The translations under genes and the position numbers were made by a program. A stretch of 26,044 bases of DNA from a virus, in the IMG/VR virus record IMGVR_UViG_3300024261_000141, positions 1-26,044 of that record. The stretch is one strand, 5' to 3'. The notes under the pieces were generated by a model. That model did not search any database. It was not told the origin of the DNA and saw only the letters and a program-made list of their open reading frames with translations. Positions 1,394-25,997 of the stretch are shown piece after piece (position 1 is the stretch's first letter; each line of letters starts with the position of its first letter).

Positions 1394-1621
1394 TCACATA
1401 ACCCGCCAAATACGAACTCCATACTTACCCTTATTGATGCATATTCTTGCGTCAATATACCAACCGCGACTTGCCGCTATACCTTCAAACTCATCAATAG
1501 CCTTGTAAGCATTAATACAGGGGACAAAAACTGATGCCCCTACTGCTATAGTGTCCCACGGAACGACAATCCTTACCCCATCGGGGCACAGATCAAACGT
1601 CCGTACCACCTCCTGTCCCAC
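1394..1621 (-). CDS. Small protein of unknown function, last gene of the leftward block
   Basis: 75 residues starting at ATG 1621, inside the end of the primase-helicase gene (29-bp overlap); the upstream coding sequence supplies a GGGGGG/GGAACAA purine run that may act as an RBS. The protein has a readable core, FVPCINAYKAIDEFEGIAASRGW followed by CINKGKYGVRIWRV, suggesting a compact alpha/beta fold. I do not recognise the family. Its overlap implies translational coupling to the primase-helicase gene. Confidence 0.65.
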   Translation of the reverse strand: MGQEVVRTFDLCPDGVRIVVPWDTIAVGASVFVPCINAYKAIDEFEGIAASRGWYIDARICINKGKYGVRIWRVM

Positions 1622-4439
1622 TATTATTTCCCCCTTTGAAGTCCACCACCCATACCGTCATGGGGTTGATCTTAAACAATGTACCTTTGGCTAACCGCAC
1701 ACTCTCCTTCTTCGCGCCCATCTTGTTTTTAAGGTCGGCGGTGAATTGAGCGTAGTTGATTTGTTGTTTGCCACACCACTTCCGAAACGGTTTAGGTACT
1801 AGGAAGAGCTTCTTGGTATCTGTCTCATAACGTGCAACCAGTTGCCCACGTGGGGATAGTTCAGGTTGTACAAGGGCATCTACCCCTGCCATAGACGACC
1901 TAGCATCGGCTGTAGACTTAATCCGTAAGATACTATTGTAGTTTTCAGCAAGGTATTCGTTTAGTGTTTCATCGAGGGTCACCGCCATTCCTGCGGCATA
2001 GCCCTTGTTCTCCACTATCACACCCTCTATCCAAGTTGTAATCTTAGGGACGCTGTACCTTAGTAACTCTAACCTATAGGCAATTATACCGGCTGTAATT
2101 GCAACCGCTGCCCCCGCTGACCAGAAACGATTTTCTGCTTTTAGTCCTACGTGCTTATCTATATTAGCTTGTACTTCTTTCAAGAGTTGCCTGACAGCCA
2201 ATTCATTTTGCATCACGTACTGTACGAAGATGATACCGGCATGCCCATACTGTAATTCTAGGCTATGGGTAAACTCATCAGTCTCTGCTTTTGTATCTGG
2301 ACTCGTAAACAGTTTATCAACCTGCACTTCTAATACACGTTGAGCCTCTGCGCTGGGGTTCTCTTTCTTCAAGCGTATACGTTCGATTACGCTAGTGTTC
2401 CCCGTAGTGACTGTAAGCAAGCTCCACGGTTCTCCACGAGGACGTTCCGCATTAGCCCCACTCACCATCCTTGCACGCTGCTTACCAGACGTAAATTGGT
2501 AGACTAAGCTACTAAGTTCTTCAGGACTTGAATCAGTTAACTCGTCTATGAACAGTGGCAGACTATGTAGTATTTCAGCCCTTAACATCTTACTGTTATG
2601 CGTATCTCTCTCGTCAAGTACTAAATCTGAAGGGTTACCCCATATCGAAGCCGATGCTATCATCGCTGTAGTCTTACCTAGACCTGAATCTTTGCTGTGA
2701 AGATGCAAAGCCGAACACGCTATACCACCGATAAACTCCATCAAGATAGAACCAAAACCCATACACACTACGTACTGATGTAACTCAAAGCCGTCACGGT
2801 TGTAGAAGTCCATTAACTTCTTCCACGATTCCAAATCCCCTTTCGGCTCAAAGGCAGGGAACAGCCCCACAGTAGAAGCTGATGGAGGGTTGAACTCAAT
2901 TGAATCCGCGTGAACCTTTCGGTTACCCAATATAAAAGTTTGGTTGTCGTCTGCCCATCCAAATTGTCGGTGCGCGTTATCTGCCATTTTTGTATCCTGT
3001 AGTGTGTGAATCCAAGTTAACATGTACCTCATTAAATCATCAATATTTAATAGGGTGACCCCGTGTTTAGCCATCTCTTTTCTAAATTCGTCGCGGGAGG
3101 TAACTGCGGTCAGGGGCAGTGTGAATTCTCTAACCCCGTCCTTTGGCATGTGTAGGCGTATTACTATTGCCTCCCCACTCTCAATATCCATAACCCGTTG
3201 CACCACATAGATGTCATTGCGGTATATTTCTTTCTCCTCTACCTCCCCATCCTTACTTCTAGTTCGTACATACACCCCACCGTTAGCCCCACGAATATAG
3301 GGTTTAGGGAACTCAGGGATTTTGTAAGTGACCGTAGGTGTACTCGGCAGGGAAAACGCGGGAGCTTCCACTGTAACGATGTTATCTTCTTCGGTAGCTT
3401 CCTTAATCGACTGCCCTATATACAAGGGACTACGAAGTTTCCCCCTATTAGGACAGGCTTGGCATATCTCAGGGTTGGCCCCTTCAAATGTGTTACAGGT
3501 GTACCGCTTGTCAGGTGTCAGGTTGTCCCATTTTACATCCGTTTCTTGGGGGTCATACCCAAGGTAACCTCGTGATATCTTATGGGCTTTCTTTCGGCTA
3601 CCGTCTTGGCATGCCTTCATTACTGACAATACCCCACGCCACACGGGTTCTGTTATCTCATCTGGACGTTGTAGTGCATGGCTTATCTGGGCACACCCTT
3701 TTCCCGCATCTGACAGCCTTAATATTTCTCTAAAACTGTACACCCGATTATCAGGCCGTTTATTCAGGGCCGCATCCATCATCCCTCCCGCTCCTTCCAC
3801 CACTACGGTGGGAGCTGGTATCAGGGGAGTGCCTAGAAGGGCGCTGAAGTTATCAAAATCAACAGGGGGAGCACTCCCTCCACCTATAAAGGTTACCTGT
3901 ACGGGGACATCGGGCTTGTAATTGTGGGTTTGGGGGACGCGCAGGACACGGGCGGCATCTGCGGTAACTGAGGGATCTGCTTTAAAGTTGTGCTTGACGC
4001 ACAATGCCTTTAGTTGTTCTGCTACGGGTAGCCAATCGGCTAAACAAACGGCTTCTTTTAATATCCAGTAGATGTGTACCCCACGTCCAGAGTTGATGAT
4101 AGTCGGGCGGGGTAACGTGTTAACGTGACAGAACTGCTTCAATGCAGCTAGTGCTGTTTCTTGTGTGGCGAACTCTTTGGTTGGGCCACAGTCTAGGTCG
4201 AGGAAAAAAGATTTTATGTTTCTTACGTTATCTGCTTTGCGGGAGTTACCCTCATTAAATGTAGATAGGGCAAAGTATACGTTGAACCCTTGGCTATCCA
4301 GTGCGGTTGCATCGTCAATCAGGGCATCTACTGAGGGGAAAAATCGTTGAACTCGTTTGTCTGTCCGTGTGTTCGCAGCGAAAATGCAATATAGACCGTC
4401 TTTTGCTAGGGCTTCCTCTAGAAATATTTTTGTTTCCAT
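1593..4439 (-). CDS. Primase-helicase: archaeo-eukaryotic-type primase plus DUF927-like helicase
   Basis: 948 residues from ATG 4439; an upstream GTG at 4466 is in frame but would start inside a predicted leader hairpin. The N-terminal half looks like a bifunctional primase/polymerase: FFLDLDCG (about 78-85) carries the metal-binding acids, SGRGVHIYW (about 117-125) the next motif, and VLRVPQTHNYK (about 165-175) the third. A Cys cluster at about 315-329 (C-x10-C-x2-C) suggests a zinc site. The C-terminal half has a Walker A, SKDSGLGKTT (about 582-591), a Walker B in LPLFIDE (about 627-633) and a sensor-like VTTGN. Such proteins prime synthesis and unwind DNA at phage forks. It is preceded by its own promoter and a structured leader. 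Confidence 0.88.
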   Translation of the reverse strand: METKIFLEEALAKDGLYCIFAANTRTDKRVQRFFPSVDALIDDATALDSQGFNVYFALSTFNEGNSRKADNVRNIKSFFLDLDCGPTKEFATQETALAALKQFCHVNTLPRPTIINSGRGVHIYWILKEAVCLADWLPVAEQLKALCVKHNFKADPSVTADAARVLRVPQTHNYKPDVPVQVTFIGGGSAPPVDFDNFSALLGTPLIPAPTVVVEGAGGMMDAALNKRPDNRVYSFREILRLSDAGKGCAQISHALQRPDEITEPVWRGVLSVMKACQDGSRKKAHKISRGYLGYDPQETDVKWDNLTPDKRYTCNTFEGANPEICQACPNRGKLRSPLYIGQSIKEATEEDNIVTVEAPAFSLPSTPTVTYKIPEFPKPYIRGANGGVYVRTRSKDGEVEEKEIYRNDIYVVQRVMDIESGEAIVIRLHMPKDGVREFTLPLTAVTSRDEFRKEMAKHGVTLLNIDDLMRYMLTWIHTLQDTKMADNAHRQFGWADDNQTFILGNRKVHADSIEFNPPSASTVGLFPAFEPKGDLESWKKLMDFYNRDGFELHQYVVCMGFGSILMEFIGGIACSALHLHSKDSGLGKTTAMIASASIWGNPSDLVLDERDTHNSKMLRAEILHSLPLFIDELTDSSPEELSSLVYQFTSGKQRARMVSGANAERPRGEPWSLLTVTTGNTSVIERIRLKKENPSAEAQRVLEVQVDKLFTSPDTKAETDEFTHSLELQYGHAGIIFVQYVMQNELAVRQLLKEVQANIDKHVGLKAENRFWSAGAAVAITAGIIAYRLELLRYSVPKITTWIEGVIVENKGYAAGMAVTLDETLNEYLAENYNSILRIKSTADARSSMAGVDALVQPELSPRGQLVARYETDTKKLFLVPKPFRKWCGKQQINYAQFTADLKNKMGAKKESVRLAKGTLFKINPMTVWVVDFKGGNNSGTGGGTDV

Positions 4440-4461
4440 AGCTATCTCAAAACCGAAAGTG

Positions 4462-4510
4462 ACCACGGCAGGGGCATAAGATCGCCCTTTTAGATATTTC
4501 TAGCCGTGGT
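4462..4510 (-). promoter_or_regulatory. Branched RNA leader before the primase-helicase gene
   Basis: Read leftward, an 8-bp outer stem (ACCACGGC at 4510-4503 with GCCGTGGT at 4469-4462) encloses two small hairpins, TAGA-AATA-TCTA and GGGC-GATCTTAT-GCCC. This is the shape of a three-way junction. It begins within a few bases of the predicted transcription start and ends 22 nt before the ATG. I cannot match it to a known riboswitch or ribozyme. It may control translation or protect the 5' end. Confidence 0.5.
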
Positions 4511-5314: not shown

Positions 5315-5965
5315 TTAATTATTAATTGTAAAACCGTCAGTTACTGCGAAGGGGGAAACATTTCCATGTTCTACGGGGACAATGCTTAGTGACAGTGCCC
5401 TTGTAGTATCCTCATGTTCCATCATTCGTTTGACAGTCTCTAGCTCCCGCTCTTCCAAAGGCCGTACTGGTCTAAAAAAGAGTTTCGGTACGTCACTACT
5501 AGCATCGAAATACATGTCTGTCACTAGTGCAACAAAAGGTGTTTCCCTCACCTCAAGGTACCGTGCATACGCACGGAGGGGCATATCCCCCTCTACCGCG
5601 TCCCCAAAAATCGAGGTGGGCGGTAGTTGTATCTGATAAACTGTTTCCAGATCATCTACCATAACAACGGCTAAACGCTGCACAAACCTACATGCACGTC
5701 CTAGTCCTCTCCCTGAACCTTTAATATTCTGGGGGCAATCTACGCAACGGGCTGACTGTCGTTTATGGTCGGGCACATTTATTGCTGGCAGTTCAGTATC
5801 GCTAGACCAGCAGGTAGGTTTTGCCACCTGTTCAGCACTGTAAGCATCTGCGTAGTACATACGCGATACGAACGCCACCCCCACGATAACTACGTGTAGG
5901 CTTTGCAGATTGCCCTCGGTGGGAATCCCGCTAAAGGTCTTGTCACGGATACTAATCCTGTTCAT
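5315..5965 (-). CDS. Phage protein with four-Cys putative zinc site, unknown function
   Basis: 216 residues. ATG 5965 overlaps the upstream stop (ATGA). Cys52 (PTCWSSD), Cys74-x2-Cys77 (RCVDCPQN) and Cys92 (RACRFVQR) are spaced like a metal-binding knuckle within the first half. The second half (YQIQLPPTSIFGDA, then LRAYARYLEVRETPF and MYFDASSDVPKLFFRP) reads as a beta-rich domain. Similar proteins are, to my knowledge, often found next to phage SSB genes, so a replication or recombination role is plausible, but no function is established. Position between a helix-turn-helix gene and the SSB gene supports co-expression with the replication set. Confidence 0.72.
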   Translation of the reverse strand: MNRISIRDKTFSGIPTEGNLQSLHVVIVGVAFVSRMYYADAYSAEQVAKPTCWSSDTELPAINVPDHKRQSARCVDCPQNIKGSGRGLGRACRFVQRLAVVMVDDLETVYQIQLPPTSIFGDAVEGDMPLRAYARYLEVRETPFVALVTDMYFDASSDVPKLFFRPVRPLEERELETVKRMMEHEDTTRALSLSIVPVEHGNVSPFAVTDGFTINN

Positions 5966-6288
5966 AGGTCTTTTTCGTCACTCATGTCGCCCCATGTACC
6001 TATGTTATCTGCCGTTAAGATCTTACCTCCCTCTTCATCCAGCTCTTCGACTATTTCAGGGTCGCTAAAAGCATCAGTCCATGCAGACGTATTCGCGGTA
6101 GTAGAGACAACAGGACGGTCTGCCAATAGTGCAGCTTCAACTGCTGCAAGGTTAAACCTATACGTCTGCTGGATGTGTACGTAGGTATCTTTGGGGATCT
6201 TACCTTGGCTTACCCAAGTACGGATTAGCCTTTCCGATACCTTAAAATGGTCGGCTACTCCTTTGACATTAACAAATTCACTTAGCAT
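5962..6288 (-). CDS. Helix-turn-helix protein (MerR/excisionase-like fold)
   Basis: 108 residues; ATG 6288 has AAGGAAGA upstream. The first 50 residues fit a winged HTH of the MerR/excisionase type: VKGVADHFKVSERLIRTWVSQGKIP, with YRFNLAAVEAAL closing the domain. The rest is acidic and low in structure (FSDPEIVEELDEEGG). It could be a transcription regulator or a DNA-binding accessory factor such as a terminase small-subunit-like or excisionase-like protein. No integrase is in the window, so an excisionase role has no direct support. Confidence 0.7.
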   Translation of the reverse strand: MLSEFVNVKGVADHFKVSERLIRTWVSQGKIPKDTYVHIQQTYRFNLAAVEAALLADRPVVSTTANTSAWTDAFSDPEIVEELDEEGGKILTADNIGTWGDMSDEKDL

Positions 6289-10073: not shown

Positions 10074-10366
10074 TACTCTTCACTACCTCCATTCTTTTGT
10101 GCTGCTACGCAGGTCATAGTTTCGATCAATAGGGTTACAATGTCGGGTATTTCGTCTATGTCAAACGTAACCGTATCACTGCGCGGGGGGTCAACCCCGT
10201 AATCACATTGGTTGAGCAGCACCATATACTTACCTCGGTTAGCCATGACTGCAATATCAGTAGTAGTTAACGCTTGCTCGTCAGGTGGGGGGAGCCGTTT
10301 AGTAGGTAGCACCTTATGTACAGCGTAGTGCGCTTTACGTTCTAGGAAATTAATTACTTGGCTCAT
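10073..10366 (-). CDS. Small protein of unknown function between polymerase and nuclease genes
   Basis: 97 residues. ATG 10366 lies inside the polymerase gene's last codons (ATGA overlap) with GGAGA before it, so it is translationally coupled to the polymerase. The N-terminus (QVINFLERKAHYAVHKVLP) is basic and helical; the rest (YMVLLNQCDYGVDPPRSDTV, then IPDIVTLLIETMTCVAAQK) is mixed alpha/beta. No motif or family is recognised. Confidence 0.65.
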   Translation of the reverse strand: MSQVINFLERKAHYAVHKVLPTKRLPPPDEQALTTTDIAVMANRGKYMVLLNQCDYGVDPPRSDTVTFDIDEIPDIVTLLIETMTCVAAQKNGGSEE

Positions 10367-12222
10367 AGTTCGCAGTCTCCGTAATTTACACCGACACCTG
10401 ATTCACAGTTTATAGGTAGTCCAGTGGCCCATACAGGAACCCACCGCATGCACTCCTCTATGTATGCACGGGCTTCCTGTTCTTGCTCTGCAAGCACGCA
10501 ACTTAAAACTGAGTCATGTACTGTCAACACAGTCCTATATCGCTTGCTAATTTTTAACATCTGCTCTGCTATTATGCAACGGGCAATGGCTTGGCAGATA
10601 TTCTCTACTAATTTAGCCCCATAAATTCTTACACGCCCTTTACGTGTCTGGTACGTATACTCTGGGCCGCGTTCCCCTTGTGCAGATCGTAAATCGTCAT
10701 ACCGTAGAAGTAACCCTGACGGTAACTTAATAGCACTTAGTTCGGGGCACACTTCTAGTACACCCTTACGCCCTAATTCTGTGGAGAATGATCCCGATAT
10801 GTCTTGCCCTACTTCTTTGTCAGCCAAAAGCTGGAGCGTGTAGCTCGCATCAGTCCACAAATTTGGTATACGGAAATATGTGTCACGGTAGACCTTGATC
10901 ACTCTCCGAGCCTCCGCTTCCTCCATGTCAACGCCGAACGTCCTAAGCTGATCTACAAAACGTTCATACCCCATCCCATATCCACAACCAAGTATAGTCG
11001 TCTTACCCACGAACCGCTGGGGCTTTGTGATAGCTTCCTCATCCTCAACGTTATAGATCGGCATCGCCATCTGTTTATATACGTCTTCACCGTTAGCAAA
11101 CGCGGTAACCAAATCCTCCTCCCCTGCTAACCATGCGAGAACCCTAGCCTCTATCTGACTAGAGTCGCAATCAATGACCACGTGCCCCTTTGGTGCGAGT
11201 ATGCTGCGCTTTAACTTCTTACCATTTACCCCTCGACTAGGTAGGTTCTGCATGTTTATCTTGTCGTCCCCACCGAACCGTCCGGTATGGGCAGCGTAAT
11301 ATTTTATGGGTATAGGTAGCGCCCCGCGCCCTGCGATATCAATGAACCGCTGCGTCCGTGTCTCTTCTAGCGTAGACTTGTTACCTAGTCGTGCTTGAGC
11401 CAGTGTTTGTACCCGAGTGTCTTTATGCTCTAACAAGTCTACAAACCCCTGATCAGTCTTCGCAAAGGCGAAGGTTTCTTTCTCAGTTGTTGGGCTGATT
11501 TTCATAGGGGCATCAACCCCTAGGTTTTCTAGCAATTCGGCAAACTTCAGGTTGCTCATAAGAGCTGTCTTGGTAACCCCCGCCTCCGCTATTAATTGCC
11601 ACTTCCCTTGTTTAACATCTTTGAGGTGGTCTTCCAGCAGTGATACATCTAATTCCAGAACAGGCTCGATGAACATTCGTAGGGTCAGGTCTATAATCTT
11701 CAGCTCAGTACGTGGAAACGTGTTACCCATAAGTCCGAACAGTTCGTATGTTAACTCAACATCGTTAATGCAGTAGTCGCCGTAGCGACTTAACGCTTCC
11801 TTCGTAAAGTCTTCTCGCCGCTTCCCTAATGCAGCCTCAATCTCTGTTCCCTTTGCTCCAATGCTATATCTATCAGCCAACGCCTTGAGACTGCCGCCAA
11901 CTTCAACCCCGTGAAGAGCACGGGCAATACAAAGAGTATCAAGGAGAACGCGAGGACGGATACCAAACAGCCAAGATAGTATAGCCCCGTCAAACATAGT
12001 GTTGTGACAGAGTAACGCAGAATCTTCCCAATAGAATCCATCTAAATACCCCTGTAATTGCTTATGTGTACCACTCGCCCATTCGGTAGGGCCATTGTTT
12101 AGCTTGACCCCTACACCAATAACCTGAAATTCCTCACCTCGAATATACTCCTCGGTCGTCATTTTTGTGAGGCTGTATGTTTTGCTATAGAAGGTTTCAA
12201 AGTCTAGTGTAATCACGTCCAT
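10363..12222 (-). CDS. polA: Family A DNA polymerase with 3'-5' exonuclease, Leu762 type
   Basis: 619 residues, the replicative polymerase. The exonuclease domain is intact (DEDDy type): Asp7 and Glu9 in DFETF, Asp78 in HNTMFDGA, and Tyr150 with Asp154 in DYCIND. The polymerase domain has motif A, VIDCDSSQIEAR (Asp353, Glu358), motif B, RFVGKTTILGCGYG (403-416), and motif C, TVHDS (His569, Asp570). Aligning Arg403, Lys407 and Tyr415 with E. coli Arg754, Lys758 and Tyr766 puts Leu411 at the Phe762 position. There is no 5'-3' exonuclease domain, as in phage PolA proteins. The start overlaps the preceding stop (TAATG). Confidence 0.95.
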   Translation of the reverse strand: MDVITLDFETFYSKTYSLTKMTTEEYIRGEEFQVIGVGVKLNNGPTEWASGTHKQLQGYLDGFYWEDSALLCHNTMFDGAILSWLFGIRPRVLLDTLCIARALHGVEVGGSLKALADRYSIGAKGTEIEAALGKRREDFTKEALSRYGDYCINDVELTYELFGLMGNTFPRTELKIIDLTLRMFIEPVLELDVSLLEDHLKDVKQGKWQLIAEAGVTKTALMSNLKFAELLENLGVDAPMKISPTTEKETFAFAKTDQGFVDLLEHKDTRVQTLAQARLGNKSTLEETRTQRFIDIAGRGALPIPIKYYAAHTGRFGGDDKINMQNLPSRGVNGKKLKRSILAPKGHVVIDCDSSQIEARVLAWLAGEEDLVTAFANGEDVYKQMAMPIYNVEDEEAITKPQRFVGKTTILGCGYGMGYERFVDQLRTFGVDMEEAEARRVIKVYRDTYFRIPNLWTDASYTLQLLADKEVGQDISGSFSTELGRKGVLEVCPELSAIKLPSGLLLRYDDLRSAQGERGPEYTYQTRKGRVRIYGAKLVENICQAIARCIIAEQMLKISKRYRTVLTVHDSVLSCVLAEQEQEARAYIEECMRWVPVWATGLPINCESGVGVNYGDCEL

Positions 12223-16701: not shown

Positions 16702-18099
<1,398 letters not shown>

Positions 18100-18109
18100 G
18101 TTCCTTCTC

Positions 18110-19249
18110 CTATGTTTTGTCGGCTGTGAATAAGTAGTTGTTGGTATGTGCCCAATCCGTGAACTTCTGGTGCTGCATGATTCTCTCCTTGAGCTTGGCT
18201 GCTTTCGGGTGTAGCCGCCTGTTATCTGATAACTGCCTAGCACGTGAGGCGAACACTGCCCCAATCGTTGGGGGACAACGCATGAGGTAGGTGAACCATG
18301 CATCAAGCATCGGCCCATCAAGCACATCCATCACCCGATACAGCACCATCATCAAGGCACTCGCAGTGGTTGGCACAGTGGCATTTTTCGGATCTGACCT
18401 GATACTCTCCAGCGAAGGTAGCTCACCCGCTAACTTGGAGAACGCCATGATGTCGCCCGCTGCTGCATCACCCGTGGTACCAACTAGTAAAGATGTTAGG
18501 GTGTGCTCATCGTATTGGTCAGCCATATGCAACCAGTTCGATGCTGCTTCGAGTGACCTGCCTGTCACCCCATGTGTCCGATTAGATCGGGGATGAGGTA
18601 TGTACAGGTTATCGTCAGGGTTCTCAAAGTCACGGAAGTCAGCAAACGCTCTGTCGTTGTCGTTCGCCCATGCCAGTATTGTGGTGTGGATATTATTGTT
18701 ATACCCCCACTCTACCCATGCATCAGGGGTTGGCTTGGCTAACTCAACCGTGGTTACCCTGTCATGTTGGTGTGCTAGTAACCTGTCACCTACACCTTCT
18801 ATGGCGAGGTTAGTCGTACAGAAGATAACGGAGTCAGGGTGCAGGGTATATGATCCGACCTTACCCTCCTGCACAATCCGCAACGTCGAGTTCAATACGC
18901 CTTGGTTACACTTACCCCACTCATCCAGCATGAGGATGACAGGCTTACCAAGATGTATACCCAGCTCCTCATTGGTCAGGTAGCGCACAAACCCGCTGCC
19001 ATCGTCCATGTGCATGAGGTCAGGTATGGTGATATCTCCCAAGTCCTTGGTAGAACAATCGAAGTAACACGGTATGTGGTCAGGTAGTCGTGCAGCTAAC
19101 ATGTGTAGTATTGAGGATTTACCCCACCCCATCGCACCTTCGACTAGTATTGATCGTCGTTTCTTATCCTTCGTGGGGTTGAGTGCTTGAGCAACCAGAG
19201 GGTTGCAGATCTGTTCATGCGTTAGTGCATATCGTTGTGATGTATTCAT
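18110..19249 (-). CDS. MoxR-type AAA+ ATPase
   Basis: 379 residues. Walker A is GAMGWGKSS (38-46), Walker B VILMLDEWGK (104-113), sensor 1 in FCTTN (Asn147), and arginines near 156 and 164 could be the finger. The tail contains a lid-like domain. It resembles the CobS/MoxR branch often called cobaltochelatase subunit in phage annotations, but no cobalamin gene is nearby, so a general chaperone role with the VWA protein is more likely. TCTGGAGAG precedes ATG 19249, and a consensus-like promoter lies 90 bp upstream. Confidence 0.88.
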   Translation of the reverse strand: MNTSQRYALTHEQICNPLVAQALNPTKDKKRRSILVEGAMGWGKSSILHMLAARLPDHIPCYFDCSTKDLGDITIPDLMHMDDGSGFVRYLTNEELGIHLGKPVILMLDEWGKCNQGVLNSTLRIVQEGKVGSYTLHPDSVIFCTTNLAIEGVGDRLLAHQHDRVTTVELAKPTPDAWVEWGYNNNIHTTILAWANDNDRAFADFRDFENPDDNLYIPHPRSNRTHGVTGRSLEAASNWLHMADQYDEHTLTSLLVGTTGDAAAGDIMAFSKLAGELPSLESIRSDPKNATVPTTASALMMVLYRVMDVLDGPMLDAWFTYLMRCPPTIGAVFASRARQLSDNRRLHPKAAKLKERIMQHQKFTDWAHTNNYLFTADKT

Positions 19250-21316: not shown

Positions 21317-21539
21317 TGTTGTTCTCCCATGCGCTTACGGGTTGACGAATTAGTGAATTGCGAAACTCTGTAAGGTTTTTAATCTCTTCATCAATGTAAT
21401 TGAGCAACTCTTTTGGCGTGAGCTTCTCTTCTTCTTCACAACAGCCACAAGAAGAATGGTAGACAGAAGATGTACCATCTGCGTATATCTGTAGCCAATC
21501 AACGTCACTGTGATAAGAAGCTGTTTCTTCATTTTTCAT
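21309..21539 (-). CDS. Small acidic protein with Cys cluster
   Basis: 76 residues, ATG 21539 within the second junction element. SSCGCCEEEEKLTP gives three Cys in four positions (CGCC), a possible metal or redox site, followed by a helix (ELLNYIDEEIKNLTEFRNSL). The start MKNEE resembles the start of the Ala-rich paralogues because the junction encodes it. Function unknown. Confidence 0.62.
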   Translation of the reverse strand: MKNEETASYHSDVDWLQIYADGTSSVYHSSCGCCEEEEKLTPKELLNYIDEEIKNLTEFRNSLIRQPVSAWENNNE

Positions 21540-21786
21540 TAGTTACCTCCTCATACCGTTTAACCCAGTGAGCAACATTACCAGCCCAGTAATCAGTATT
21601 ATCAGCATCATAAGCAGCAGCATGAGCAGCACGAGCAGCAGCACGAGCAGCAGCACCAGCACGATAAGCATCATAAGCATCATCAGCAGCATCAGCAGCA
21701 CGATCAGCATTTGCCTTTAGTGCTTCTACACTAACTACTTCACCTGCTTGCCATCTCTTAACCAGTTCTATGTATTCATTTTTCAT
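21529..21786 (-). CDS. Ala-rich paralogue 1
   Basis: 85 residues. N-terminus MKNEYIELVKRWQAGEVVSV and C-terminus WVKRYEEVTNEK are shared with the gene at 21776-22006, while the middle is a run of Ala broken by Asp, Arg, Tyr and His (AADAADDAYDAYRAGAAARA). The DNA there is built of GCAGCAGCAC-like units and is prone to slippage. The middle should be one helix or a solenoid-like repeat. Function unknown; ATG 21786 overlaps the previous stop. Confidence 0.72.
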   Translation of the reverse strand: MKNEYIELVKRWQAGEVVSVEALKANADRAADAADDAYDAYRAGAAARAAARAAHAAAYDADNTDYWAGNVAHWVKRYEEVTNEK

Positions 21787-22006
21787 TAGTTAACTCCTCA
21801 TATCTTTTGACCCAGTAAGCAGCAGCAGCAGCACGAGCAGCAGCAACGTAAGCAGCTTCAGCAGCAGCCTCAGCCTCAGTAGCAACGTAAGCAGCCTCAG
21901 CATTATAAGCCGCCCAAGCTGCATCAGCATTTGCCTGTAGTGCTTCTACACTAACTACTTCACCTGCTAACCATCTCTTAACAACTTCTATGTATTCATT
22001 TTTCAT
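21776..22006 (-). CDS. Ala-rich paralogue 2
   Basis: 76 residues; AAGGAGAAAACAACA precedes ATG 22006. It begins MKNEYIEVVKRWLAGEVVSV and ends WVKRYEELTNEK, almost as in paralogue 1; the Ala-rich middle (AAYVATEAEAAAEAAYVAAA) differs in length and sequence. This split between fixed ends and variable middle suggests recent tandem duplication followed by repeat change. Confidence 0.72.
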   Translation of the reverse strand: MKNEYIEVVKRWLAGEVVSVEALQANADAAWAAYNAEAAYVATEAEAAAEAAYVAAARAAAAAYWVKRYEELTNEK

Positions 22007-22855: not shown

Positions 22856-23134
22856 TCATTCTCCTTCGCTTAGACGTACCCACATAGCAGCGGCAGCGGC
22901 GTACCTAGCGTAAGCAGCATCGGGATCAGACCAAGGGTAAATAGTAGTGTGAACCTCAGCAGCAGTGTAAGCGTCGCTAGCAGCATGCCAAGCGCAAGTG
23001 GGTGTGTCAGGGGTATCGGGCATCTCATGGCAGTCATCAGATACAGCATCATAATTCGCCTTCAATTCTTCTAGGCTTACGCTGTCATTATCTGCCAGCC
23101 ATCTCTTAACAACTTCTACGTATTCATTTTCCAT
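22856..23134 (-). CDS. Ala-rich paralogue 3 (diverged)
   Basis: 92 residues; CTGGAGAACGAAG precedes ATG 23134. The start MENEYVEVVKRWLADNDSVS and EELKANYDAVS match the two paralogues near 21.5-22 kb; the middle is less repetitive and holds Cys, Trp and His (CHEMPDTPDTPTCAWHAASD), and the end (ARYAAAAAMWVRLSEGE) is a diverged form of WVKRYEE. It lies under a 37-bp promoter/dyad element. Function unknown. Confidence 0.7.
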   Translation of the reverse strand: MENEYVEVVKRWLADNDSVSLEELKANYDAVSDDCHEMPDTPDTPTCAWHAASDAYTAAEVHTTIYPWSDPDAAYARYAAAAAMWVRLSEGE

Positions 23135-23161: not shown

Positions 23162-23198
23162 CTTATAGGGTGTCCTATAAGTTTTTGTTAATGTTTAT
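23162..23198 (-). promoter_or_regulatory. 37-bp promoter/operator element, copy 1
   Basis: Identical to 24253-24289. It holds a dyad CTTATAGG-GTGT-CCTATAAG and, on the minus strand, TTAACA (23191-23186), 18 bp, TATAAG (23167-23162), so the dyad spans the spacer and -10. It covers the last codons of the gp88 gene and leads into paralogue 3. A repressible promoter is the simplest reading. Confidence 0.6.
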
Positions 23199-24008: not shown

Positions 24009-24236
24009 TCAGTCAAAGTTTACGCCAGAAACATCTGGCTCGATCCAGAACTGTACATTCATATCTTCTTCATGCCTCTTGGTTTCTGCTTCCCACATTG
24101 CCACAGCATAATCCTTGTGGAGCCTGTCTTGTAACCAGTAAACATTTCCGGTGCGAATATCTCGTCGCATCAAACGCCACATTAGCGAATCCTCCAATAC
24201 TTTTTCGAGACTAGAAAAATCCAGTTCCTTGTCCAT
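24009..24236 (-). CDS. Small protein of unknown function, first gene of the leftward chain
   Basis: 75 residues; CTGGAGAGTAAG precedes ATG 24236, which lies 16 bp after the second copy of the 37-bp promoter/dyad element. The sequence is helical and charged (SSLEKVLEDSLMWRLMRRDI, then AVAMWEAETKRHEEDMNVQF). Position as first gene behind an early-type promoter suggests an early product, perhaps acting on the host. No family recognised. Confidence 0.62.
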   Translation of the reverse strand: MDKELDFSSLEKVLEDSLMWRLMRRDIRTGNVYWLQDRLHKDYAVAMWEAETKRHEEDMNVQFWIEPDVSGVNFD

Positions 24237-24252
24237 TCTTACTCTCCAGTTT

Positions 24253-24289
24253 CTTATAGGGTGTCCTATAAGTTTTTGTTAATGTTTAT
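24253..24289 (-). promoter_or_regulatory. 37-bp promoter/operator element, copy 2
   Basis: Exact copy of 23162-23198. The -35-like TTAACA is at 24282-24277 and the TATAAG at 24258-24253. A start 7 nt later would leave only about 10 nt before the ATG and touch the ribosome site, so either the RNA is nearly leaderless or the element acts mainly as an operator. Confidence 0.55.
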
Positions 24290-24332
24290 AAGGTGAATGC
24301 TGGGGTTCCTGCACGCACTCAATAAACACCAC

Positions 24333-24356
24333 AAAAAAGGCCAGCAAATGCTGACC
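24333..24356 (-). terminator. Leftward intrinsic terminator
   Basis: Minus strand: GGTCAGC-ATTT-GCTGGCC (24356-24339, one G-U pair) followed by TTTTTT (24338-24333). It ends transcripts coming from the right, although no gene is called between here and 25825. Confidence 0.8.
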
Positions 24357-24433
24357 CTAATTGAGTGGTTATCGGTTCCGACTTTATTATTCGATCCGTT
24401 TAACTAGCCACTTAGCAGCTATAATTTAATCAG

Positions 24434-24574
24434 TTACTTTCCAAAACTTGATAAATACCTTTCACGTATCGCGGCAATAAGATGTTTTTCATTGCGGCAA
24501 TCATTTTTCGCATACGATGTAGTGGCGCGTGAACCTGTTTTAACTTCTTTAACTTTGTAATGAACTACAAAGTA
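24434..24574 (-). pseudogene. 46-codon protein-like frame without a start codon
   Basis: Runs from just after a TGA (24577-24575) to TAA 24436-24434. It reads HYKVKEVKTGSRATTSYAKN, then CRNEKHLIAAIRERYLSSFG, which looks like real protein with even residue use. There is an AGGAG at 24584-24580 but no ATG, GTG or TTG in frame after it. It lies in the predicted leftward transcript that ends at 24333. It may be a decayed gene, use a rare start, or reflect a base error. Confidence 0.4.
24552..24573. repeat. 8-bp dyad ACTTTGTA/TACAAAGT
   Basis: ACTTTGTA (24552-24559), six bases, TACAAAGT (24566-24573). It overlaps the beginning of the startless 46-codon frame, so it could be an operator or a hairpin hiding its ribosome site. 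It resembles the ACTTTAC dyads but has different inner bases. Confidence 0.5.
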
Positions 24575-24815
24575 TCAAGCTCCTACTTGTTAACCTTTCG
24601 ACTATAAACGGTTACAGACGTGTCTTATTTGCATCAACAATCGACAAATTCTTACGCCGATCTAACAGTGATAGAGCGCGACTTACACCATGCGTGACGT
24701 ACCGCTAGCCGTTCATGACCGAAGCAAGTTCGGTACACATTCAATTGAACTGGGGATTCAATCTACATCCAGTGCTTGGGCCAAACTGGGTACGCCCTTG
24801 ATTCCTTACTTGTTC

Positions 24816-24843
24816 CAAACTTATAAGATGTCCTATAAGTTTG
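24816..24843. repeat. 10-bp dyad related to the 37-bp element
   Basis: CAAACTTATA (24816-24825), AGATGTCC, TATAAGTTTG (24834-24843). The inner CTTATA...TCCTATAAG matches the dyad at 23162 and 24253 apart from two bases, but the TTTTTGTTAATG flank with the -35 is missing. It begins about 27 nt downstream of the predicted start of the promoter at 24877-24905. Confidence 0.65.
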
Positions 24844-24876
24844 CCGGAATCTATATAAACTACTACCTGAGAACAC

Positions 24877-24905
24877 ATTATGACATACTATAGGGTCGAT
24901 GTCAA
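24877..24905 (-). promoter_or_regulatory. Strong leftward sigma70-like promoter
   Basis: Minus strand: TTGACA (24905-24900), exactly 17 bp, CATAAT (24882-24877); 11 of 12 hexamer bases match consensus. The start would be near 24870. With the terminator at 24333 the RNA would be about 540 nt. A T7-promoter-like sequence lies on the opposite strand of the same bases. Confidence 0.72.
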
Positions 24906-24939
24906 GTTCGTGTACTACTGTGTCCTTCTAGGTTTATCT

Positions 24940-24958
24940 GTGGAAATCTGTTGATTAC
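24940..24958 (+). repeat. 19-bp direct repeat, copy 1
   Basis: GTGGAAATCTGTTGATTAC, repeated exactly at 25548-25566. Just upstream and downstream a shorter word, TTCTAGGTTKATCTGT, occurs twice (from 24926 and from 24977). These look like short protein-binding iterons. Confidence 0.65.
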
Positions 24959-25031
24959 GTACTGTGTTCTATGCCTTTCTAGGTTGATCTGTCCGAATAG
25001 CAGGAAGTGGAAGGTATCGTCTTGTTCTAGC

Positions 25032-25395
25032 ACTGTAGCGTAATGTAGTAGAACGGTTCTGCTACAGTACAGATGTGGAGTGGTGTGGAATGATGTGGAC
25101 GTTTACCGGCAGGTACTGGTAATGGATGGCGCAGAAATGTGAGCTATTGATAGTGTAGCTGTTTCCCCAGAATCAATAGTATTCTAGATCTGAGAGGGGG
25201 GGAGAGACCTCTGGGCAGGAGATATTTAGGAATCCCCAGCAGCCCTATATATATATATGGTTTATTAACTACACTATATATATATAGCTATTTCTGCTCA
25301 ACCATCTGCCATTAAACGCCAACATCGTTCTATAGTGTTCCACATTGTTCCACTTTTGTAATGTAGCAGAACATTCTACTACATTATGCTACAGT
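25032..25395. repeat. 364-bp imperfect inverted repeat (arms about 127 bp)
   Basis: Left arm 25032-25158, right arm 25269-25395. Three anchor words pair about the same centre (25213-25214): ACTGTAGC with its neighbours (25032 vs 25395), GCAGAAAT (25131-25138 vs 25290-25297) and TAGTGTAG (25151-25158 vs 25269-25276). The outer 39 bp of the arms differ at only about four positions, and each contains its own smaller palindrome. The 110-bp core has a GAGAGGGGGGGAGAG purine run and TATATATATAT tracts. Candidate origin, or a relic of an inverted duplication. Confidence 0.8.
25245..25287. repeat. Paired (TA)n tracts in the core of the inverted repeat
   Basis: Two runs of alternating TA (about 25246-25258 and 25274-25286) flank GGTTTATTAACTACAC. 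They would melt easily and could be a DNA unwinding element. Confidence 0.6.
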
Positions 25396-25493
25396 ATGCG
25401 TATTCTAGCTACACTACCTCTGTAACCCGCATGCCTACTGCCTCTCAGCGATATGCCCTAAAAACTACAATACAACTGTGGCCTTTGGTGTCG

Positions 25494-25524
25494 CTACGCC
25501 ATACTCCATGAGGTACTGGTATCG
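25494..25524 (+). repeat. Iterated repeat, degenerate copy A
   Basis: Shares TACGCCATACTCCA and GGTACTGGTATC with copies B and C but differs in the middle (TGAG in place of GTGG) and at the left end. A still weaker echo, AGGTACTGGTA, is at 25111-25121. Confidence 0.65.
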
Positions 25525-25547
25525 AAAATTACGTACAGTATCATTAG

Positions 25548-25566
25548 GTGGAAATCTGTTGATTAC
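25548..25566 (+). repeat. 19-bp direct repeat, copy 2
   Basis: Same 19 bases as 24940-24958. Here it runs into CCGTACCGTAC and the dyad at 25573-25596. Confidence 0.65.
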
Positions 25567-25572
25567 CGTACC

Positions 25573-25596
25573 GTACTTTACGACACTGTAAAGTAC
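25573..25596. repeat. 9-bp perfect dyad GTACTTTAC/GTAAAGTAC
   Basis: Spacer GACACT. It shares TACTTTAC-N6-GTAAAGTA with the leader dyad at 19284-19309, including the six-base spacing. Located between copies A and B of the 36-bp repeat family. Confidence 0.7.
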
Positions 25597-25614
25597 CACC
25601 ATGTGGAATAACAG

Positions 25615-25650
25615 GACGATACGCCATACTCCAGTGGGTACTGGTATCAG
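25615..25650 (+). repeat. 36-bp repeat, copy B
   Basis: Identical to 25724-25759. Internal hairpin CCAGT-GGGT-ACTGG and outer GATAC/GTATC arms make each unit a bulged palindrome. Unit starts of B and C are 109 bp apart. Confidence 0.8.
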
Positions 25651-25669
25651 GTTAGGGTATGCTACGCTC

Positions 25670-25692
25670 TACTACCCGGGGCCGGGGTAGTA
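25670..25692. repeat. GC-rich palindrome between copies B and C
   Basis: TACTACCC-GGGGCCG-GGGTAGTA. An 8-bp perfect stem flanked on both sides by GTTAGGGT. Confidence 0.65.
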
Positions 25693-25723
25693 AGTTAGGG
25701 TGCGTTAACCTATCACCGTATGA

Positions 25724-25759
25724 GACGATACGCCATACTCCAGTGGGTACTGGTATCAG
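25724..25759 (+). repeat. 36-bp repeat, copy C
   Basis: Exact copy of 25615-25650; the flanking bases differ at once on both sides, so the conserved unit has sharp borders. Confidence 0.8.
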
Positions 25760-25781
25760 AGAGTGATCAAACGACAGGCAC

Positions 25782-25804
25782 AAAAAAGCCCCAATTAAGG
25801 GGCT
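25782..25804 (-). terminator. Leftward intrinsic terminator after the 38-aa gene
   Basis: Minus strand: AGCCCC-TTAATT-GGGGCT (25804-25787) followed by TTTTT. It closes the small gene at 25825-25941 and separates it from the noncoding region. Confidence 0.88.
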
Positions 25805-25824
25805 AATCTGTTAGTAGTTCCAAT

Positions 25825-25941
25825 CTACTTTTTTTGTAGTTGGGGCTGTGGGTAATGTGTTATCTGATCGTTGTAGTGAACGGGTGTTGCGGGTGTTGCG
25901 GGTGTTGCTGTGGTTGCTGTGAAGATTAGATCATTGTTCAT
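25825..25941 (-). CDS. 38-aa Thr/Pro-rich protein, possibly extended by -1 frameshift
   Basis: ATG 25941 has AAGGA 8 nt upstream; TAG at 25827-25825. The product starts MNNDLIFTATTATPATPATP, where a 9-bp tandem repeat encodes Ala-Thr-Pro units, and ends PQPQLQKK. The last codons are CAA AAA AAG TAG, which place the slippery heptamer A-AAA-AAG in the exact frame for -1 slippage. A -1 shift would add VDWNY and stop at 25811. The gene stands alone between two leftward terminators. Function unknown. Confidence 0.6.
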   Translation of the reverse strand: MNNDLIFTATTATPATPATPVHYNDQITHYPQPQLQKK

Positions 25942-25962
25942 TGTGTTGTTCCTTTTAGGATT

Positions 25963-25989
25963 AAAAAAAGCCCCCTATTTCTAGGGGGC
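25963..25989 (-). terminator. Strong leftward intrinsic terminator
   Basis: Minus strand: GCCCCCTA-GAAA-TAGGGGGC (25989-25970), an 8-bp stem with a GNRA-type loop, followed by seven T (25969-25963). It lies 9 bp after the stop of the edge gene. Confidence 0.92.
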
Positions 25990-25997
25990 AGTTAAGG

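Follow-up and report, generated by a model that had tools for sequence, protein, structure and literature searches.

A duplicated, inverted iteron module as the probable core of a replication origin in an uncultured phage

The 364-bp inverted repeat described here is probably the core of a phage replication origin of the iteron/AT-rich type, working like a SaPI origin. Origins of this type are of a known kind, and the inverted duplication of one module is the unusual detail. To our knowledge, most phage origins are unmapped, a few models apart. The repeat is found in a phage contig of 26,044 bp (26 kb), a complete IMG/VR viral record that was analysed as a whole (the window) and is probably a fragment of a larger genome. 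Nearly all genes of the window are carried by the minus strand. They encode a primase-helicase of 957 aa, a helicase of the SNF2 type, an ATPase/VWA pair, small proteins and a family A polymerase; this PolA is 35%–37% identical to its counterparts in Rhizobium phage RHph_TM3_14A and Pseudomonas phage KPP25. The features of the window are listed below, with the basis of each in parentheses.

1593-4466, minus strand: 957-aa protein with an AEP primase and a DUF927 helicase, the proposed initiator (domain, profile and fold matches).
10363-12222, minus strand: family A DNA polymerase (protein comparison).
24237-25995, no strand: non-coding region of about 1.76 kb (ORF list and sequence).
24858-24933, no strand: promoter/operator-like element, TTGACA-17-CATAAT on the minus strand inside TGACAT...ATGTCA (conserved in the contigs L010, L020 and L028).
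25032-25158, minus strand: left arm, the right-arm module repeated in inverted orientation, with GTGGA iterons at 10-bp spacing (25075, 25085 and 25095) and a TAATGTAG dyad (arm alignment and module comparison).
25040-25070, no strand: left-arm dyad TAATGTAGTAGAAC-GGTTCTGCTACAGTA (sequence).
25192-25207, plus strand: G-rich purine run near the axis (G run kept in L020, L028, L031 and L010).
25245-25294, no strand: AT tract, proposed unwinding element, with the lowest duplex stability of any 50-bp stretch in the contig (predicted stability -0.969 against a mean of -1.37).
25269-25395, plus strand: right arm, the conserved module, with the edge of the AT tract, TTTCTGC, TGCCNTTAAACG, TTCCAC iterons, a TAATGTAG dyad and GCTACA (blastn to relatives).
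25337-25354, plus strand: pair of TGTTCCAC-type iterons at 10-bp spacing, with three such iterons in L020 (sequence).
25359-25386, no strand: right-arm dyad TAATGTAGCAGAACATTCTACTACATTA (sequence).
25490-25759, plus strand: three distal units (25490-25525, 25615-25650 and 25724-25759), each ending in GGNACTGGTAT (sequence and relatives).
25787-25804, minus strand: terminator-like hairpin that closes the region on the right (kept in relatives).

The non-coding region is bounded by the leftward operon, whose first gene is at 24009-24236 (minus strand), and by the 3′ end of a leftward-reading ORF that comes from the contig end. Between these limits, the ORF list and the sequence contained no gene-like frame and no open frame above 72 codons. 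The inverted repeat sits within this region, with the leftward replication operon downstream of it, and in relatives the terminase genes are oriented opposite to that operon, across the region. Searches of a phage DNA collection and of Rfam with the region both returned zero matches. One T7-promoter-like string is present near 24877-24895 and is not conserved in L020; no phage RNA polymerase was recognised among the window proteins scanned. Elsewhere in the window, a MoxR/CobS-like ATPase (16702-18327, minus strand) is followed by a CobT-like product (18110-19249, minus strand) that has a VWA-type motif, DTSGSIS, and a long low-complexity run of GEGKGEG; its PHROGs family label is HNH endonuclease, despite the VWA-type motif. 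Three similar small Ala-rich proteins starting with M(K/E)NEY(I/V)E(L/V)VKRW, apparently paralogues, are encoded on the minus strand at 21529-21786, 21776-22006 and 22856-23134.

The two arms, 127 bp each, are placed about an axis at 25213.5, and the coordinates and centre given in the earlier note were correct. By global gapped alignment the arms share 98 identical positions over 141 columns, corresponding to 98 of the 113 ungapped pairs (87%), with a score of 57, while shuffled arms gave a mean of 3.6, a standard deviation of 4.2 and a maximum of 14; the symmetry over about 127 bp therefore goes beyond chance hairpins, as had been proposed. The near identity claimed for the outer ends was confirmed in 36 of the outer 40 columns, or so, and in 21 of the outermost 22 bp. 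The inner 67 bp alone scored 18, above the maximum of 12.5 over 1000 shuffles, and the inner identity is therefore not at random level. When the whole contig was scanned for spaced inverted repeats, this one scored 72 and the runner-up 23. Small insertions and deletions distinguish the two arms. The core holds the TA tracts (25245-25257 and 25274-25286) and G-rich run described before; however, the axis has the G run on one side and the AT tract on the other, which places the AT tract off-centre, with its right part inside the right arm. The palindrome reported in each arm and the iterated units reported on the right (25490, 25615 and 25724) are present. The dyad pattern had no occurrence in a prokaryote genome collection. 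An exact 19-bp direct repeat, GTGGAAATCTGTTGATTAC, which includes a GTGGAA word, lies outside both arms at 24940-24958 and 25548-25566, and it was not seen in the aligned relatives.

The same region was recognised at the DNA level in four contigs (L020, L028, L031 and L038), and in part in L010. By blastn, the right arm is 73%–81% identical to these four, and the conserved stretch, which spans the core and the right arm (25190-25393), is 77% identical to L020. The conserved items are the G run, the AT tract and the TTTCTGC, TGCCNTTAAACG, dyad and GCTACA words, together with TTCCAC iterons exactly 10 bp apart, and the position of the AT tract is also the least stable 50-mer of L020, L028 and L031. 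The region lies between the replication operon and the opposite-running terminase genes in L020 and L038, and the neighbours are the same in L028 and L031 over the extent of those contigs. The left arm as such is absent from all four, in which only the right arm is complete, so the long-range symmetry is not universal.

Read in reverse, the left arm follows the right-arm module, with CTACACTAT, ATTTCTGCGC, TGCCGGTAAACG, the three iterons CGTCCACATC-ATTCCACACC-ACTCCACATC and then TGTAGCAGAAC-CGTTCTACTACATTACGCTACAGT. It is 81%–85% identical to the right arm of the relatives and 87% to its own partner, and TGTAGCAGAAC is common to the left arm and that partner only, not to the right arms of the relatives. 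These comparisons suggest an inverted duplication of the module within the lineage of the window, old enough for the copies to have diverged, with retention of words that resemble protein sites. A reading in which the right arm and core are functional and the left arm is a neutral duplication with no function of its own would explain why the nearest relatives lack it. However, the three phased iterons, the TGCC..TAAACG word and the dyad were kept while the intervening sequence diverged and gained indels, and symmetry is found independently in the contig G001 and in KPP25, which makes a neutral left arm quite improbable. The earlier note also raised a mobile inverted element, and a MITE-like insertion could indeed be imagined from the inverted arms and the 19-bp direct repeat outside them. 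This candidate is scarcely credible and was rejected: the right arm and core occupy the same place in relatives, no transposase or other gene lies inside, and neither a duplication at the arm ends, nor an empty site, nor a second copy in the contig was found.

The highest-scoring spaced inverted repeat coincides with the least stable 50-bp duplex of the whole record in the window, G001, G003 and KPP25, with different sequences; for a single record, the chance of such a coincidence within 150 bp is about 0.5%–1%. G001 is a contig of 57,950 bp with a terminase 80% identical to that of L020 and a primase-helicase 50% identical to that of the window, and G003 is its near twin (90% identical). The least stable 50-mer of G001 lies at 40366, in the same syntenic gap, and is flanked by inverted arms at 40248-40279 and 40549-40580 (score of 49, against 35 for the best of 100 shuffles); this contig is too diverged for the region to be aligned, and its row was left out of the alignment reading. 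The stability minimum of the KPP25 genome (26503-26552) is located between arms at 26419-26512 and 26572-26664, with a score of 50 against 27 for the best of 100 shuffles, and six records of the KPP25 group carry this region at 97%–100% identity. The two features do not coincide in G002, G004, Rollin, RHph_TM3_14A and phiA008, although in RHph_TM3_14A and phiA008 (first 50 kb each) the AT minimum is in a comparable early intergenic gap. The AT minima of the window, L020, L028, L031, KPP25, RHph_TM3_14A, phiA008 and G001 are all intergenic, near the start of the early or replication operon, which favours an origin. Symmetry conserved under changing sequence, taken beforehand as a sign of function, is therefore seen in G001/G003 and KPP25, whereas the nearest relatives have one full arm only. 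Within 300 bp of the core, TGTTMCR occurs 8 times in L026 (0.13 expected), 9 times in G001 (0.32 expected) and 8 times in KPP25 (0.31 expected). This motif was picked after inspection, and the window itself holds only 2 sites; L026 has no long arms matching those of the window. GC skew, which had been suggested as a check, gave no support for an origin: the locus is unmarked in G001, and the switch in KPP25 is at 23.9 kb, not 26.5 kb. This measure is uninformative because the switch follows gene direction in KPP25.

The kinship of the window primase-helicase points in the same direction as the origin reading. Its profile matches include the Cch protein of SCCmec (PDB 5dgk) and the SaPIbov1 Rep initiator (PDB 8tch), with E values of about 1e-14, and its predicted fold also matches both structures, with the AEP primase domain in front (mean pLDDT of 60 for the whole model). 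Two structure models of the C-terminal domain, of low confidence there, gave no usable match. DUF927-containing Cch is related to SaPIbov1 Rep, and SaPI Rep recognises iterons through its C-terminal domain (PMC7581432). SaPI origins are described as having repeats in opposite orientations and as supporting the self-loading of two head-to-head hexamers (PMC9894130).

From these data we infer how the origin could work. Each arm is one copy of a module of about 127 bp, combining helically phased 10-bp TCCAC iterons (three on the left, two on the right) with a dyad, and the two copies face each other, with the G run and the AT-rich duplex of lowest predicted stability in the contig between them. 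An initiator, most likely the primase-DUF927 helicase (1593-4466), would bind the iterons of both arms in opposite orientation, two head-to-head helicase rings could then assemble on the arms and open the AT tract, and the phage DNA polymerase would extend the two forks so started. Among the three readings in the earlier note, an origin is the best supported, through the conserved core, the iterons, the least stable duplex, the adjacency to the operon and the SaPI-Rep-like helicase gene, even though long symmetry is missing in the nearest relatives and GC skew does not help.

The closest known counterpart is the SaPIbov1 origin. As there, iterons in opposite orientation (GTGGA three times on the left, TCCAC twice on the right, in 10-bp phase) flank an AT region of low stability, and a related DUF927-type helicase is encoded within the same replicon (PDB 8tch). 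However, the candidate (25032-25395) does not follow the helicase gene (1593-4466) immediately but lies about 20 kb away, and the helicase carries a fused AEP primase. The replicon is here a phage that encodes its own polymerase, and the dyads, G run and distal units are additional. The working may be SaPI-like, but the locus is not assigned as a SaPI origin because it is placed differently with respect to the helicase gene and binding is a prediction. SCCmec offers another helicase relative (Cch, PDB 5dgk), and Cch2 binds short direct repeats; its putative origin differs in having only three iterons, adjoining the helicase gene, and inverted repeats that are dispensable for Cch2 binding (PMC7581432). 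Phage lambda-type origins likewise have iterons, bound by the O protein, beside an AT-rich tract, whereas the present element is non-coding rather than inside an initiator gene, has iterons on both sides and is accompanied by no recognised O-like protein. The resemblance to the SV40 origin and T antigen is one of working only, namely opposed sites that direct two head-to-head helicases, as virus and sequence are unrelated. The intergenic region of KPP25 (Kochitakasuvirus, 26219-26894) has a comparable position and inverted arms around the AT minimum of its genome, but its iteron is TCGTAACA and its helicase belongs to the DUF5906 family; no paper describing this region as an origin was found in the literature. 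Since KPP25 and phiA008 both encode this different, DUF5906 type of primase-helicase, the layout, if used by both groups, is not tied to one helicase family. A DnaA-dependent, oriC-like origin was also considered and rejected, as no DnaA box (TTWTNCACA) lies near the AT element; the sole match in the window is at 18125.

The main rival to an origin is regulation, in which the dyads and TTCCAC repeats would bind a dimeric phage regulator of the leftward early operon and its neighbours, with the AT tract as a promoter or curvature element. In its favour, the operon lies downstream of the repeat, and both a strong promoter-like match (24905-24877, minus strand) and the conserved operator-like element (24858-24933) are close by. 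Phage-specific palindromes of operator type occur on both sides of the region and ahead of genes, and a small HTH-like protein is encoded at 5962-6288. Nevertheless, the promoter-like and operator-like elements are outside the repeat, more than 100 bp to the left of the left arm, and inside it only one promoter-like match (9/12) is found. Promoter-like matches in the region are at chance level (3 against 4.2 expected), and an operator needs neither the minimum duplex stability of the contig nor iterons on both sides. A purely regulatory role is therefore considered unlikely, but such a role could share sequence with an origin, and to that extent the control element of the earlier note may persist.

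The flanking palindromes (about 18-20 bp) differ in sequence in each relative and are found upstream of genes: in the window at 23162, 24253 and 24820, in L020 at 5360, 6022, 6330 and 7362, and in G001 at 38099, 40058, 40626 and 41433. L026 has six copies of GTTATGCCATGGCATAAC, and L019/L038 have CTATCGGTGCCACCGATAG. Together they look like a phage-specific operator set, possibly immunity-like.

To the right of the repeat, 2-3 copies of the distal units are also present in L020, L028, L031, L038 and G001; their 3′ part, GGNACTGGTAT, is conserved among relatives and their 5′ part is variable. A packaging site (cos or pac), with the repeats as sites for the terminase small subunit, might be supposed here, as the terminase genes of relatives begin 1-2 kb rightward and the contigs L027 and L029, which come from different samples, terminate at one homologous base inside a distal unit. 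However, L010, L031 and G003 end elsewhere, the last of these inside a repeated operator, G001 (58 kb) passes through the region uninterrupted, and an AT core with iteron symmetry is atypical of cos. Such a site is accordingly judged very unlikely. The shared end of L027 and L029 may be a genome end or an assembly break. A terminase relative (L070, 73%) was found on a contig of a Rhodobacterales metagenome bin, a weak hint of the host; this contig, the single one obtained when prokaryote genomes were searched for the terminase, begins with that gene and therefore includes no origin.

Returning to the origin reading, it can be tentatively suggested that a wide lineage of phages, extending from uncultured contigs as far as Pseudomonas phage KPP25, may use symmetric origins like those of SaPI and SV40, with self-loading head-to-head primase-helicases, and that the symmetry may have been repeatedly rebuilt through inverted duplications of a module with one arm, alongside changes in the iteron sequence. 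The locus allows an exact origin to be predicted both in a group of uncultured phages and in the cultured phage KPP25, and ties the predicted origin to a primase-helicase of the SaPI Rep kind. In addition, the one-armed and two-armed versions of one module form a natural comparison, which could show whether opening needs initiator binding on both sides.
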